From Eggerthellaceae bacterium (GTDB taxonomy: Bacteria; Actinomycetota; Coriobacteriia; Coriobacteriales; Eggerthellaceae): a stretch of DNA of 64,000 nt. Made by a program: the position numbers and the translations under genes. Shown in pieces: positions 58,650 to 64,000 of this stretch. The notes under the pieces were generated by a model. The model searched no databases. It was not told the origin of the DNA and saw only the letters and a list, made by a program, of their open reading frames with translations. The stretch covers positions 1 to 64,000 of the forward strand of contig SUUI01000007.1 in assembly GCA_015062605.1 (NCBI GenBank), read 5' to 3'. Positions within the stretch are counted from its first letter, which is position 1. The number at the start of each line of letters is the position of its first letter.

Positions 58650-59657
58650 ATGTCGTTTGCGAAAAAGGCATTCAAGGCAATCGATAAGAACCCGATCGGC
58701 CATAAGCTCGCCGTCGCGCGACGCGGCGCACTCGATGCTTTAGCTGATCCTTCGGTCGTGACCAAGGCGCCCTATCGATTCATAGACAGGAGCCACGGGT
58801 CCGAATCGATGTGCATGATCCTCGCGGGCTACAAGCCCACGCTTTGGAATGATGTCTTCGCCCGCTTGGCAGCATCGCTGCCAAGCGGTTTCGATGTATG
58901 CGTGCTTTCGAGCGGATTGTTCGACGAGCGCCTCGACAGAATAGCAGAGGAGCATGGTTGGTCGTACCTGTCAACCGAAGTCAACCAGCTTGCGAATATT
59001 CAGAACAAGGCCATCGAACTCCATCCGAGCGCAACTTGGATATACAAAGTCGACGAGGATATCTTCGTCACCGACGGGCTCTTCAATGGTCTGCGCGAAG
59101 GCTTAGAGCGGGTAAGCGAGACAACATGTTGGCGCCCTGCATTCGCGGCGCCTTTGCTCAATGTGAATACATATACGAGCATCCGGCTCCTCGAGCTTGT
59201 AGGGCTTACCGAGGACTTCCAAGCTCAAGGGCTCTGCGAAGTGGCATACACGGACGGCATCACCCATAACATCGGTCTGCTCGAAGACCCGCGAGTCTCT
59301 AAGTACATGTGGGGAGAAAGCCAAGAAGTGCTCGCGGATATCGATGTGCTCGCCAGAGCATTGGCCCTGCAGCCGTTCTCCTTTTCGCTGTGCCCAGGAC
59401 GTTTCAGCATCGGCGTCATCCTGTTTTCACGTGCGACGTGGGAAGCCTTCGACCACTTCCCCGTAAACAGCCGCAAAAACGGTTTGGGCGATGACGAGGA
59501 GCACGTTGCCACGTTCGCATGCCTTACGGGCCATCCCATCCTCGTCTGTGAGAACCTGCTTGCCGGCCATCTCGGATATGGTCCGCAAACCGAAGACATG
59601 CTCGCCTATCACGAAGCGCATCCCGATGTATTCGCATTCAAGGGAGACATGAGATGA
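58650..59657 (+). CDS. Glycosyltransferase-like protein
   Basis: A 335-residue soluble protein not recognised with certainty. Residues 50-170 resemble a nucleotide-sugar-binding fold (CMILAGYKPTLWNDVF; FDVCVLSSGLFDERLD) and contain YKVDEDIFVTDG, an acidic DED of the metal-binding DxD kind, near residue 131. A later FSIGVILFSRATWEAFDHF and GLGDDEEHVA segment fits a GT-A acceptor region. There is no signal peptide or membrane helix. AAAGGA lies ten bases before the ATG. It overlaps the DUF4422 gene by 4 bases (ATGA), so they act together. Confidence 0.6.
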   Translation: MSFAKKAFKAIDKNPIGHKLAVARRGALDALADPSVVTKAPYRFIDRSHGSESMCMILAGYKPTLWNDVFARLAASLPSGFDVCVLSSGLFDERLDRIAEEHGWSYLSTEVNQLANIQNKAIELHPSATWIYKVDEDIFVTDGLFNGLREGLERVSETTCWRPAFAAPLLNVNTYTSIRLLELVGLTEDFQAQGLCEVAYTDGITHNIGLLEDPRVSKYMWGESQEVLADIDVLARALALQPFSFSLCPGRFSIGVILFSRATWEAFDHFPVNSRKNGLGDDEEHVATFACLTGHPILVCENLLAGHLGYGPQTEDMLAYHEAHPDVFAFKGDMR

Positions 59658-60697
59658 TCAACATCGTCGAAAAGCTTAGAAACGTCGCATCGCAGGCGAG
59701 CAAATCCGACGGGGATGCCGTCATCGAGGGCGATGTGCCCGCCGTCATCATAGCGGTCTCATGTCATAAGCCCACGTCGATTCCCAAGGCAGGGGCATAT
59801 CTGCCCATCCATGTCGGTGCAGCACTCGCGCAGGAGCCGATCGCCTCAATGCAACCCGACGACGAAGGCGACAACATCTCTGCGACCAACCCCCGTTTCT
59901 GCGAGCTCACCGCGCAGTATTGGGCATGGAAGCATGTCGAAGCCGAATATGTCGGACTCTGCCACTATCGCCGCTACTTCTGCTTTGACAGCCTCGACCA
60001 CGAAATGAACGATCACGCTCAAATCGAAGTGAGCGACCTGACACCTGAAACCGCACGCGAATACCGCCTCGACGACGATGTGCTGATCTCCCAGACGGTG
60101 CAGCAATACGACATGATCATCCCCAAAGAGTGGGACATCCGCGGAGTGTATACGCCTAAGGGACCGAAACGCTCCGTTGCGAAGCACATGATCGCCTATG
60201 GTCTTGTCACGAAGAAGCTCCTTAAAGCACTTGACAAGGCAGTCGCGAAGCGACAGCGCGCATATCGCAGGGATCTCAACGACTACCTTAGCGGGTCAAC
60301 CTATATCGGATACAACTGCTTCATCGCGCGCCGCGACCTGTTCGACAAGCTCTGCGATTTCGAGTTCGATGTCCTGGACGCCTTAGATGAGAGCTTCGAT
60401 TTCTCGAACGACCCCAAAAACGGCGAACGCGTCTTCGGTTATCTCGGCGAAATCCTCTTCAGCGCGTTCGTTGTGCACCTTGCACGCGAAGGCAAGGCGA
60501 ATATCGGAGAGTTCCCACTTGTTTTCTTCGAATACACCTACGGAGAAGAGGAGCTCGCCGCACTCTTGGAGAAGGGGCCGATCGTCCACGAGAGGGGTGA
60601 TCCAGGCGCCATCGCCCGCGCGAAGGAGCGCCTGCTCCCCTACGGCAGCAGGCGACGCGCAGCGGCCAATACCGTGCGCGGCCTCTTCCGAAGATAG
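59654..60697 (+). CDS. DUF4422 glycosyltransferase
   Basis: A 347-residue protein with the DUF4422 signature region: VIIAVSCHKP near the start, then SATNPRFCELTAQYWAWKH and YVGLCHYRRYFCFD near residues 80-115. DUF4422 members are GT-A-like transferases in capsule and surface polysaccharide clusters, such as UDP-galactopyranose transferases. The exact sugar is unknown. The C-terminal RRRAAANTVRGLFRR is basic and may touch the membrane. It is translationally coupled to the gene before it. Confidence 0.85.
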   Translation: MINIVEKLRNVASQASKSDGDAVIEGDVPAVIIAVSCHKPTSIPKAGAYLPIHVGAALAQEPIASMQPDDEGDNISATNPRFCELTAQYWAWKHVEAEYVGLCHYRRYFCFDSLDHEMNDHAQIEVSDLTPETAREYRLDDDVLISQTVQQYDMIIPKEWDIRGVYTPKGPKRSVAKHMIAYGLVTKKLLKALDKAVAKRQRAYRRDLNDYLSGSTYIGYNCFIARRDLFDKLCDFEFDVLDALDESFDFSNDPKNGERVFGYLGEILFSAFVVHLAREGKANIGEFPLVFFEYTYGEEELAALLEKGPIVHERGDPGAIARAKERLLPYGSRRRAAANTVRGLFRR

Positions 60698-60720: not shown

Positions 60721-62829
60721 ATGGTTCAGATCGATCGAAAAGAGGGTTTCGGTTTCATCGCAAGGCGTTGCGTCATAGCCGCCTATGACGCGTTTTCTCT
60801 GTTGGCAGTCTCCGCCATCATCGCACTCGGCATCCCTGAGAACGCGTATGCCTACGTCGATCCCTCTGTCATGACCTACACGATCCAAGCGCTCGCCGGC
60901 GTCGCCGTCGCACTCGGAGCGGTCGCTGGCGTCGCCTTCCGAAGGACGAGAAGAGTGCTGTTTAATCTGCTGCGAATCGACGAGAACGCCGGCAAGACAG
61001 TTGAGAGAAAGGTGTTTCGCATCGCAGAAGGCGACGTTAGGGCACATGCCGTTGCAGATAGGCAAGCGAAAAGGATGATCGCCTCGATGACGAAAACCGG
61101 CCAAAGCGAGCTTTCTTGGAAATCGCGGTTCTTGTTCGCGCTCATCGCTTCGGGTTTCTTCACGTTCACGTTCTTCGTCGCGTCCCCATATGAACTGATC
61201 GGCGGAGGGTCGGACAGCCTCATGTTCGGCCTTTCCGAAACATGGAGGCCCTTTGCTGTAGCAGGCATCATCATATGGATCGCACTTGCCGTCATCATCT
61301 CGCTTCTCAAGGGCAAAGCGTTCAACATCTCCGTCGCCTCGGTCATCGGATTCGGATTATTGTGCTATCTGCAGGCTCTTTTCGGGAACGGATCGCTCCC
61401 CTCCGCCGATGGCGCCGAGGTCGCGTGGGACAACTTCAGTACGACGACGATCATCAACGGCATCTTATGGCTTCTGGGCATCGTTGCACTTGCCATTTTC
61501 CTTTGGAAAAAACCGACGCTGTGTCGAAACGCCCTGTGCGTCTTGGCTGTGTGCGTGGCAATCGTCGAGGCTGTTGGCGTAGGGAGCCTTTTCCTCGATC
61601 CGGTCGTCATGGCAAAGTCTGCCAACGATTCGGAAGTGCATGTAACCGAGGATGGCCTCTTTGATATTTCCGATAAGGAAAACGTCGTTCTGTTCCTCCT
61701 TGATTGGTACGACAACGCAACGCTTAATTACCTGTACGACACGAATCCGAACATGCTCGATGAGATGACAGGGTTCACCTATTACAAAGATGTATCGGGT
61801 TCGATCGCACCGACCAGATACGCCGTCCCATGGATCTTAACCGCTCAGATGATCCAGCATGACGAGCTCTATTCCCATTACCTTTCAACCATTTACGATC
61901 GCTCGACCTTCCTCGATGACCTGAAGGCAACCGGATACTCGATAGGCATCTACACTGACACATTCGGCGCAACGAAGGCAGAGGTTTCACGCGGCATCGA
62001 ATACACCTCCGAACGCGCCTTCAACATAAAGCCCATCGAGACAATCGGCTTAGACGTCCCGGCTGCTTTGCTGGTCATGTACAAAGCGTCTTGCTATCGG
62101 AATCTACCGTGGGTAGCAAAACCGGCCTTCTGGTTCTATACAGACCAGATCAACCAGGCCATGGCGCAGAAGAACGAGCCGGGCACGAATCCAGCTAATA
62201 CGCCCTATATCATGGACGATGCAGGCTATTACGCAAAGCTCAAGCAGACCCGCCTGAAGATCAACGATGATGACACTGGATCCTTCCGCATCATCCACCT
62301 CATGGGAATCCATGAACCATTCAACCTTGACGAGAATGGCGAAGCGCTACCCGAGGGAACGATGAGCAACGAATACCGCCAAGGTCTCGGCGTCATGAAG
62401 ATGGTTTCTGAATATATCCATCAGCTAAAGGAGCTGGGCGTTTACGAAAAGACGACCATCATCATTTCCTGCGACCATGGCACATGGATCTGGGACGAGG
62501 TGCCACTTGCAGTGCCGAACAGCCCCATCATGCTCGTCAAACCTGCTGGCGCTGGGGACCAAGACGGTCCTGCTAAGCTCTCATATGCCCCCATCAGCCA
62601 ATACGATCTGCACGCGAGCATCATGAAGGCTATCACAGGAGACGGCTCCAAGTACGGCACTGCCTTCGATGAGGTCGACGAAGATGCGCATCGCGTGCGC
62701 ATGTATATCCACCCCACAATCGACGTTCCGCCCGACGACACGGATTTCATCGAGTATGAAATCGATGGATACACACTCGATTTCAGCAATTGGCATACAA
62801 CCGGCAAGGTCTGGAGCTGCTTCGAATAG
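60721..62829 (+). CDS. Polytopic membrane protein with sulfatase-fold domain
   Basis: A 702-residue protein. The first 295 residues contain about seven hydrophobic helices, two of them flanking a YAYVDPSVMTYTIQALAG segment followed by an RRTRR stop. The rest (about 310-702) is an extracytoplasmic alkaline-phosphatase-superfamily domain: FLLDWYDN with a likely metal ligand Asp328, SIAPTRYAVPW where the nucleophile is expected (Ser361/Thr365), HLMGIHEP, and SCDHGTW (Asp585-His586). This architecture resembles LtaS/EptA-type transferases of phosphoglycerol or phosphoethanolamine, but the nucleophile assignment is uncertain. The ribosome site is weak, so the start could be slightly later. It lies 23 bases after the DUF4422 gene. 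Confidence 0.75.
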   Translation: MVQIDRKEGFGFIARRCVIAAYDAFSLLAVSAIIALGIPENAYAYVDPSVMTYTIQALAGVAVALGAVAGVAFRRTRRVLFNLLRIDENAGKTVERKVFRIAEGDVRAHAVADRQAKRMIASMTKTGQSELSWKSRFLFALIASGFFTFTFFVASPYELIGGGSDSLMFGLSETWRPFAVAGIIIWIALAVIISLLKGKAFNISVASVIGFGLLCYLQALFGNGSLPSADGAEVAWDNFSTTTIINGILWLLGIVALAIFLWKKPTLCRNALCVLAVCVAIVEAVGVGSLFLDPVVMAKSANDSEVHVTEDGLFDISDKENVVLFLLDWYDNATLNYLYDTNPNMLDEMTGFTYYKDVSGSIAPTRYAVPWILTAQMIQHDELYSHYLSTIYDRSTFLDDLKATGYSIGIYTDTFGATKAEVSRGIEYTSERAFNIKPIETIGLDVPAALLVMYKASCYRNLPWVAKPAFWFYTDQINQAMAQKNEPGTNPANTPYIMDDAGYYAKLKQTRLKINDDDTGSFRIIHLMGIHEPFNLDENGEALPEGTMSNEYRQGLGVMKMVSEYIHQLKELGVYEKTTIIISCDHGTWIWDEVPLAVPNSPIMLVKPAGAGDQDGPAKLSYAPISQYDLHASIMKAITGDGSKYGTAFDEVDEDAHRVRMYIHPTIDVPPDDTDFIEYEIDGYTLDFSNWHTTGKVWSCFE

Positions 62830-62958: not shown

Positions 62959-62999
62959 GAAAAGTCGGATTTTAAACGACGTAGAAGGATTATTCACTG

Positions 63000-64000
63000 A
63001 TGCTTGAAGCAATAGCCAGCGTTCTGTCGCTGATTGTCCAACCCTGTTACGACCTTACGGGCAATTGGTGGATCGCCATCCTCCTGTTCACGCTCATCAC
63101 CAAAGTCATCTTGATGCCCATGGCGCTCTGGTGCCAGAAAAACGCCATCGTCATGGTGCAGCTCATGCCGGATTTGTTCCGTATCAAAATCAAGTATTTC
63201 GGTGATAGCGAGACGATTGGCGAAAAGCAAAACGCACTGTACAAGGAAAAGCACTATCACCCCCTTTTGAGCCTCGTTCCACTCGCCGTTCAAATCATCA
63301 TCCTGTTCGGTTTGGTTGATGTAATCCACTCCATTACCGACAACGGCGCCCCCGGAACCGAATTCTTGGGCCTCATCCCCATCACCGATGGCGGCATTTC
63401 GTGGATTATGCCTATCCTTGCGGGTCTTTCCGCTGTGCTCATGGGATTCGCGCAGAACCGCATCAACCCGCTTCAACGTGAGCAAACCCGCGCGGAGAAG
63501 AACCTCACTAACGGCCTCTCGATTGCGCTCTCGTTCTTCTTGGGCATCTTCGTTGCGGCTGGCATGGCCTTCTACTGGATTTGCTCGAACCTAAGCGCCA
63601 TCCTCGTCCAAGTCCTTTGCAATATCATCATCAAGCCGAAGAAATACATCGATTACGAGGATTTGGAAGCATCGCGTAAGGAATTCGAGGCACTCAACGC
63701 CCTCGATGCCGAGCGCAAGACGAAATGGTACCAGCGCGACCCGCTTGCGAAACGCGAGAAGGCCGACTACAAGCGCTTCATGAATATCGTCAACAAGCAC
63801 ATCGTGTTCTATTCAGAAGGGAGCGGCTTCTTCAAGTATTTCAAAGGAGCCATCCGCTACCTGCTCGCGAACTCCAACACCGTCATCCATTACGTCACCA
63901 ATGACCCGAACGATCAGGTGTTTGAACTCTCCAAGACCAACCCGCGCATCATCCCCTATTACATCGGCGAGAAGCGCGCTATCACCTTGATGATGAAGAT
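63000..64000 (+). CDS. YidC/Oxa1-like domain fused to CDP-glycerol glycerophosphotransferase-like domain (partial)
   Basis: The frame is open from the ATG (AGAAGGA ten bases upstream) to the window edge, 333 codons with no stop. Residues 1-213 match the YidC/Oxa1 core: five hydrophobic helices (about 5-17, 22-44, 89-111, 133-152, 173-213), a GNWWIAILLFTLITKVILMP helix with Lys35 where insertases have the groove Arg, a charged hairpin with VQLMPDLFRIKIKYFGDSE, and HPLLSLVPLAVQI. Residues 214-260 are a charged linker. From residue 268 HIVFYSEGSGFFKY, AIRYLLANSNTVIHYVTNDP and IIPYYIGEKRAITLMMK resemble the start of TagB/TagF-like CDP-glycerol transferases. The 3' end is missing. Confidence 0.75.
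   Translation, partial: MLEAIASVLSLIVQPCYDLTGNWWIAILLFTLITKVILMPMALWCQKNAIVMVQLMPDLFRIKIKYFGDSETIGEKQNALYKEKHYHPLLSLVPLAVQIIILFGLVDVIHSITDNGAPGTEFLGLIPITDGGISWIMPILAGLSAVLMGFAQNRINPLQREQTRAEKNLTNGLSIALSFFLGIFVAAGMAFYWICSNLSAILVQVLCNIIIKPKKYIDYEDLEASRKEFEALNALDAERKTKWYQRDPLAKREKADYKRFMNIVNKHIVFYSEGSGFFKYFKGAIRYLLANSNTVIHYVTNDPNDQVFELSKTNPRIIPYYIGEKRAITLMMK

Follow-up and report, generated by a model that had tools for sequence, protein, structure and literature searches.

We report that an Eggerthellaceae bacterium encodes, in a single gene, a membrane domain of the YidC/Oxa1 insertase family joined to a transferase domain of the TagF/TarL family, an observation confirmed by reading the complete gene, and that the fusion is usually encoded next to an LtaS-like protein with a sulfatase fold. 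Our preferred reading, held tentatively and with a confidence a little short of even, is that the fusion is the subunit that provides the membrane and cytoplasmic parts of a two-sided envelope transferase, in which the groove of the YidC domain would pass or scramble a lipid-linked intermediate. The component families are known; the fusion arrangement is apparently undescribed in the open-access literature searched, which leaves subscription journals mostly uncovered and in which we found no published YidC-transferase or YidC-sulfatase fusion, single-chain form or swap.

The fusion gene and its domains

The window, by which we mean the whole stretch of 64,000 nucleotides that was analysed, belongs to contig C15, which extends past position 64000, in a draft genome of 1.7 Mb that is 98% complete. 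The first-pass annotation, made from the window alone, had called for the continuity of the gene to be checked. The contig extension shows that the reading frame, which begins with an ATG at 63000 and is still open at 64000, ends at contig position 64934 and encodes 644 amino acids with no stop or frame break. The features of the gene that fall in the window are as follows.

62983..62989, + strand: Shine-Dalgarno-like AGAAGGA, ten bases 5' of the fusion start codon (read directly)
63000..64000, + strand: YidC-transferase fusion gene, first 333 of 644 codons (ORF list, contig, Pfam)
63000..63635, + strand: YidC/Oxa1 domain, residues 1-212, with an N-terminal helix, five transmembrane helices and a cytoplasmic hairpin (Pfam, AlphaFold, Foldseek)
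63102..63104, + strand: codon of the groove lysine K35, aligned with E. coli YidC R366 (alignment)
63576..63578, + strand: codon of W193, aligned with E. coli Y517 (alignment; PMC8920935)
63636..63746, + strand: charged helical linker, residues 213-249 (AlphaFold; conservation below that of either domain)
63747..64000, + strand: start of the TagF/TarL-family (PF04464) domain, which as a whole spans residues 250-640 (Pfam, Foldseek, alignment)

The first pass had assigned the N-terminal ~213 residues to YidC/Oxa1, citing a lysine in the groove and a charged hairpin on the cytoplasmic side, and the C-terminal part to glycerophosphotransferase-like proteins of the TagF/TarL family on the strength of three quoted motifs; the motifs are all present and both assignments were upheld. 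Pfam 60KD_IMP (YidC/Oxa1; PF02096) matches residues 23-208 with 96 bits (cut-off 35; E 2.4e-27), covering model positions 1-162 of 163, and NCBIfam TIGR03592 gives 83.5 bits, slightly below its cut-off of 84.3. Pfam Glyphos_transf (PF04464) matches residues 263-540 (E 2e-9, 37.3 bits against a curated cut-off of 22.1). The AlphaFold model (mean pLDDT 82.5) combines the helix arrangement of YidC with a GT-B-type domain C-terminal to it; the former comprises an N-terminal helix at 2-20, transmembrane helices at about 23-43, 88-114, 136-155, 164-184 and 187-211, and the hairpin at 44-86. Foldseek with this model places TagF first (3l7k, 1.9e-11), a TagF-like capsule polymerase second and YidC lower (6al2; 3wo7 with a TM score of 0.63), and a profile of the transferase domain searched against the PDB by sequence alone finds Cps3D (3.8e-7), TarL (2.8e-5) and TagF (6.6e-4).

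Like the TagF/TarL/Cps3D polymerases (PF04464; 3l7k, 8va1, 8qoy), the transferase domain has a GT-B fold, RPHP and TDWSS-type motifs and a conserved His, H367, which we infer to be equivalent to TagF H444. The active-site-type residues H367, RPHP 473-476, D522 and S524 fall outside the window and are invariant over 14 diverse members. The motif that in TagF is of the WHGTPLK type reads FHHMTST in the fusion. Unlike these polymerases, the fusion has a YidC membrane domain of its own, and unlike other members of the YidC/Oxa1/Alb3 family (PF02096; 3wvf, 3wo7), its YidC domain is fused to a transferase and found within envelope gene sets.

An LtaS-like partner, single-chain forms and a reciprocal module

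The fusion gene is preceded in the window by a gene for a sulfatase-fold membrane protein that carries a distinctive N-terminal element.

60721..62829, + strand: LtaS-like sulfatase-fold protein P0005 with N-terminal YVDPS element (Pfam, alignment, PDB profile)
60841..60930, + strand: YVDPS transmembrane element, about residues 41-70 of P0005 (alignment; most conserved stretch of the partner family)

A second partner, P0006, is encoded 3' of the fusion at contig positions 64927-67038 and is 63% identical to P0005, and the source locus thus has a sulfatase-fold partner on both sides of the fusion. The best solved relative of the partner in a PDB profile search is LtaS (2w5r, 3e-11). As in LtaS and related phosphotransferases (2w5r, 4uoo, 4uop), a sulfatase fold is combined with conserved Thr, His and Asp-His residues: T363, H524, H529, D583 and H584, the active-site Thr and the metal His/Asp positions, are invariant. 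The NCBIfam LtaS model gives P0006 only 16.2 bits against a cut-off of 970, and the partner is, as judged by fold and distant sequence similarity, LtaS-like and not an LtaS equivalog. It differs from LtaS in bearing the YVDPS element and in being paired or fused with a YidC-transferase. The element (A-Y-V-D-P-S-V-M-T-Y-T-I-Q-A-L-A-G-V-A-V-A-L) lies after a signal-like segment and before an Arg/Lys cluster, and 22 of its 30 positions are invariant, as against 4-12% of positions in the remainder of the partner; it is probably a transmembrane element of N-out, C-in orientation.

The association of the fusion with sulfatase-fold genes, anticipated in the first pass, was borne out by a survey of the 53 named loci whose sequence continues for 1.5 kb or more past the fusion. 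The sulfatase-fold part comes next after the fusion in 45 of them, mostly as the next gene and often overlapping the fusion gene; it is encoded immediately upstream in 1 and within about 10 kb in 2, and no sulfatase-fold gene was found on the examined sequence of the other 5, of which 3 are short contigs. Sulfatase-fold genes were the only widely recurrent neighbours, and no conserved third neighbour that could supply a donor was found in 67 loci.

Four loci (L058, L069, L070 and L103) contain three tandem sulfatase-fold paralogues behind one YidC-transferase gene; in these, diversification has affected the outer enzyme, with the YidC-transferase kept as one copy.

All four parts (YidC, transferase, element and sulfatase) are joined in one ORF of 1357-1387 amino acids at 6 named loci, and Pfam recognizes all three families in the two single-chain proteins submitted to it, although in L093 the transferase match (18.6 bits) is below the cut-off of 22.1. 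A reciprocal form occurs in the source genome and nine others: here it is the sulfatase-fold enzyme that is joined to YidC, and the element is found on the transferase, where it reads YIDPGTGSMLFT. The source genome encodes this second module on contig C29.

L004:6520-9456, contig C29: YidC-sulfatase-fold fusion (up to 978 aa) of the second module
L004:9475-10821, contig C29: PF04464 transferase with YIDPG element, after the YidC-sulfatase gene

The element is present on the reciprocal-type transferase in 10 of 10 loci and absent from the YidC-bearing chains of both two-chain modules in the source genome. Each two-chain module therefore consists of one YidC-bearing and one element-bearing chain, with one inner and one outer enzyme, the enzymes being exchanged between the chains; all three PF00884 proteins and both PF04464 proteins found in the source genome belong to the two modules. 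Because each two-chain module keeps the same parts with the enzymes swapped, there is strong genomic evidence that YidC, the element and both enzymes would act together. The earlier suggestion that the insertase domain has come to form part of an envelope-polymer machine is likewise supported.

Conservation and putative role of the YidC domain

Compared over one and the same set of 11 genomes, the fused YidC averages a pairwise identity of 0.71, its own transferase domain 0.60 and the housekeeping YidC 0.53, and the fused YidC exceeds the transferase domain in 52 of 55 genome pairs and the housekeeping YidC in 50 of 55. Its lead over the transferase domain is not explicable by horizontal transfer, since both parts share one gene. 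Because the fused YidC domain is more conserved than both of these, it is probably not a mere anchor. K35 is invariant in 23 fusion proteins, and W193 is invariant as well. In the YidC-sulfatase type, W206 is kept in 11/11, and the groove charge position is N44 (Ser in one; N or S in 11/11), the second-module YidC on contig C29 having Asn in place of the groove Arg/Lys. The groove charge has been reported to be dispensable if position 517 is hydrophilic or aromatic, the role of the charge being to keep the groove wet (PMC8920935); since the residue pairs of both fused types are compatible with a working groove according to that mutagenesis, both would be expected to keep the groove hydrated. 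In a YidC tree the two fused types and the housekeeping YidCs form three separate groups, whose branching order the tree does not resolve, the fused YidC making up a clade distinct from the housekeeping copies in its host organisms.

In the two-sided transferase that we tentatively propose, the TagF/TarL-like domain would act in the cytoplasm with an activated phospho-alcohol or similar donor and a membrane-bound acceptor, and the YidC-like domain and the element would form the intramembrane part that joins the inner to the outer enzyme. A lipid-linked intermediate would be passed or scrambled along the YidC groove from the inner to the outer enzyme, with its polar head crossing, and the LtaS-like phosphotransferase, anchored by the YVDPS/YIDPG element, would complete the transfer on the outer face. 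Lipid scrambling in vitro is known for E. coli YidC and its relatives, and simulations locate it in the insertion groove (PMC10491306). This activity, together with the conserved pairing, the single-chain versions, the reciprocal swap and the stronger conservation of YidC, makes this the best-supported model, in which the physical complex, the groove route of the intermediate and the chemistry are inferred. Several findings stand against the proposal: a finished polymer could be exported by a TagGH-like ABC transporter encoded in the source cluster; TagD/TarI-like enzymes are missing from most carriers and a sulfatase-fold gene from the 5 loci noted above; and a sister relation of the two fused YidC lineages is not supported by the tree. 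In addition, at one locus of another actinobacterial class (L147) a free transferase adjoins an LtaS-like gene without a neighbouring YidC, and the YidC part is therefore not indispensable to the enzyme pairing as such.

The proposed arrangement would resemble multi-component transmembrane glycosylation of the CsbB/GtcA/YfhO type (PMC8035078) in its division of labour into cytoplasmic loading, membrane passage and extracellular transfer. Both enzymes and a YidC unit are encoded together. The families differ: here the putative passage unit is of the YidC type, the enzymes are TagF-like and LtaS-like, and the parts lie in one or two chains. The results suggest that an insertase fold took on a new use, the transfer of building blocks of the cell envelope across the membrane. 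The more specific idea that the YidC/Oxa1 fold became a dedicated scramblase or flippase for a lipid-linked envelope intermediate, within one assembly line spanning the membrane from the TagF-like to the LtaS-like enzyme, with two YidC lineages joined reciprocally to the same enzyme pair, is conceivable, though on balance we lean against it. If the YidC domain were shown to be the passage unit, the system would merit a class of its own. The fusion would also define an unrecognised envelope pathway in Coriobacteriia, which are common human gut and oral bacteria and on whose surface polymers we found almost no literature. Oxa1-superfamily insertases scramble lipids in vitro with no physiological lipid role shown (PMC10491306), and a YidC domain that is fused to lipid-polymer enzymes and conserved above housekeeping YidC is a test case, offered by nature, where handling lipids could be the principal function.

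It is also possible, if somewhat unlikely, that the YidC fold has lost its transport function and is a scaffold or anchor holding the transferase by its LtaS-like partner, while the product crosses by the ABC transporter or a general flippase. Proximity is a frequent purpose of fusions, the cluster in the window has its own TagGH-like transporter, and the groove positive charge is lost in the reciprocal-type YidC. Against this, YidC is the most conserved part, whereas a mere anchor would be expected to drift, and K35 does not vary. Alternatively, the YidC domain could be a private insertase devoted to inserting the partner, for example its N-out YVDPS/YIDPG element. In favour of this, short N-out helices are among the substrates of YidC, the element-bearing transferases begin with a short N-tail and lack a signal peptide, YidC-bearing chains pair with element-bearing chains, and the groove residues are kept. 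We nevertheless consider this unlikely: a separate canonical YidC (~260 aa) is present in 55 of the 60 genomes with the full-length fusion, the 5 without it being fragmented drafts; in the single-chain versions, the segment to be inserted would belong to the same polypeptide as the insertase; and the attached catalytic domain is left unexplained. The source genome itself, where the first pass had asked for a separate YidC to be sought, has its housekeeping YidC in the usual order rnpA-yidD-yidC-jag.

Donor chemistry, distribution and surrounding genes

The donor was examined through the cytidylyltransferases of the carriers. TagD scored above the cut-off in 4 of the 60 fusion genomes and is absent from 56, the source genome included; its frequency with and without the fusion (4/60 and 50/338, Fisher p 0.10) indicates no significant enrichment or depletion. 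A second IspD/TarI-like enzyme is present in about 13 of the 60, and about 44 lack both this and TagD. The source genome encodes CoaD, NadD and a PepM-cytidylyltransferase fusion, with no TagD and a single IspD in an isoprenoid setting. CDP-glycerol as the donor is doubtful because TagD, the enzyme that makes it, is missing from most carriers; the CDP-glycerol transferase proposed in the first pass thus stands as to PF04464 family membership and is weakened as to chemistry. Canonical CDP-glycerol chemistry via TagD is unlikely on these counts, and CDP-ribitol via TarI was set aside on the count of second IspD-like enzymes. The fusion could still be a standard CDP-glycerol teichoic acid polymerase whose membrane-binding region has been exchanged for YidC, a part that would move nothing, as the matches to PF04464 and TagF/TarL/Cps3D and the conservation of H367, H475, D522 and S524 would allow; the scarcity of TagD, which sets the carriers apart from the TagF/TarL/Cps3D systems, and of TarI-like enzymes makes this very improbable.

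A candidate source of a CMP-phosphonate donor is the PepM-cytidylyltransferase, found in the source genome and adjoining the free transferase homologue of L147. The latter (genome G560), the one free homologue among 296 genomes of the same phylum, is the nearest relative found outside the class and lies in a phosphonate setting.

At L147:6522-13040, genes for a PepM-cytidylyltransferase, a decarboxylase-like protein, an iron alcohol dehydrogenase, the free transferase homologue and a sulfatase-fold membrane protein stand in a row that looks like a pathway for hydroxyethylphosphonate transfer to an envelope polymer. At L112:1-2824 (contig C13), LicD, the PepM-cytidylyltransferase fusion and a phosphonopyruvate-decarboxylase-like gene adjoin; phosphonate decoration of a surface glycan is their probable role.

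The full-length fusion, at 53-73% identity, occurs in 60 of 398 Coriobacteriia genomes (59 besides the source genome), and a divergent fusion, at roughly 35-48% identity, in 11 more, in one of which (G328) it is apparently split over two reading frames; in total at least 70 of the 398 are carriers. These include Eggerthella sinensis, Gordonibacter, Slackia, Adlercreutzia, Raoultibacter, Olsenella, Atopobium and Lancefieldella rimae. Among named records, Eggerthellaceae MAGs come closest, and one from goat jejunum (L041), at 99% identity, is the nearest. A scan of 84,980 species genomes, with patterns that also missed the divergent Coriobacteriia forms, found no fusion outside Coriobacteriia, returning only Coriobacteriia-type records and one plain clostridial YidC; in plasmid records, the matches listed were plain YidC only. 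That the gene is an assembly artefact or a chance read-through of neighbouring genes, which the first pass could not exclude because the window end cuts the gene, is now a negligible prospect, as the contig ORF is uninterrupted and 59 further genomes, some of them isolates with long contigs, have full-length homologues.

Four genomes (G203, G273, G315 and G348) each have two full-length or near-full-length YidC-transferase fusion genes.

Upstream of P0005, the window contains two further genes of a polysaccharide cluster.

58650..59657, + strand: 335-aa protein, first gene of the polysaccharide cluster, neighbour only (ORF list)
59654..60697, + strand: DUF4422 protein, neighbour only (Pfam; not kept beside the fusion elsewhere save in the closest relative)

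The first pass had linked DUF4422 to the fusion; the neighbourhood survey of fusion loci rules it out as a conserved partner; apart from the source genome, only the closest relative has such a gene next to the fusion. The 335-aa protein has no Pfam or NCBIfam match and has a 90% counterpart in a near relative (L042). The second sulfatase gene is followed immediately by a gene for a GlfT2-like galactofuranosyltransferase (L003:8854-10938; contig C15 66854-68938), with LicD, GT4, GT2 and rfb genes 3' of it, and the cluster is one for a rhamnose-containing polysaccharide, probably with galactofuranose. Further along contig C15 (84527-86371; L008:6527-8371), the C-terminal part of a TagH-type ABC ATPase weakly matches CWB2 (E 1e-4, just below the cut-off), a cell-wall-binding repeat that is odd for a cytoplasmic ABC subunit.
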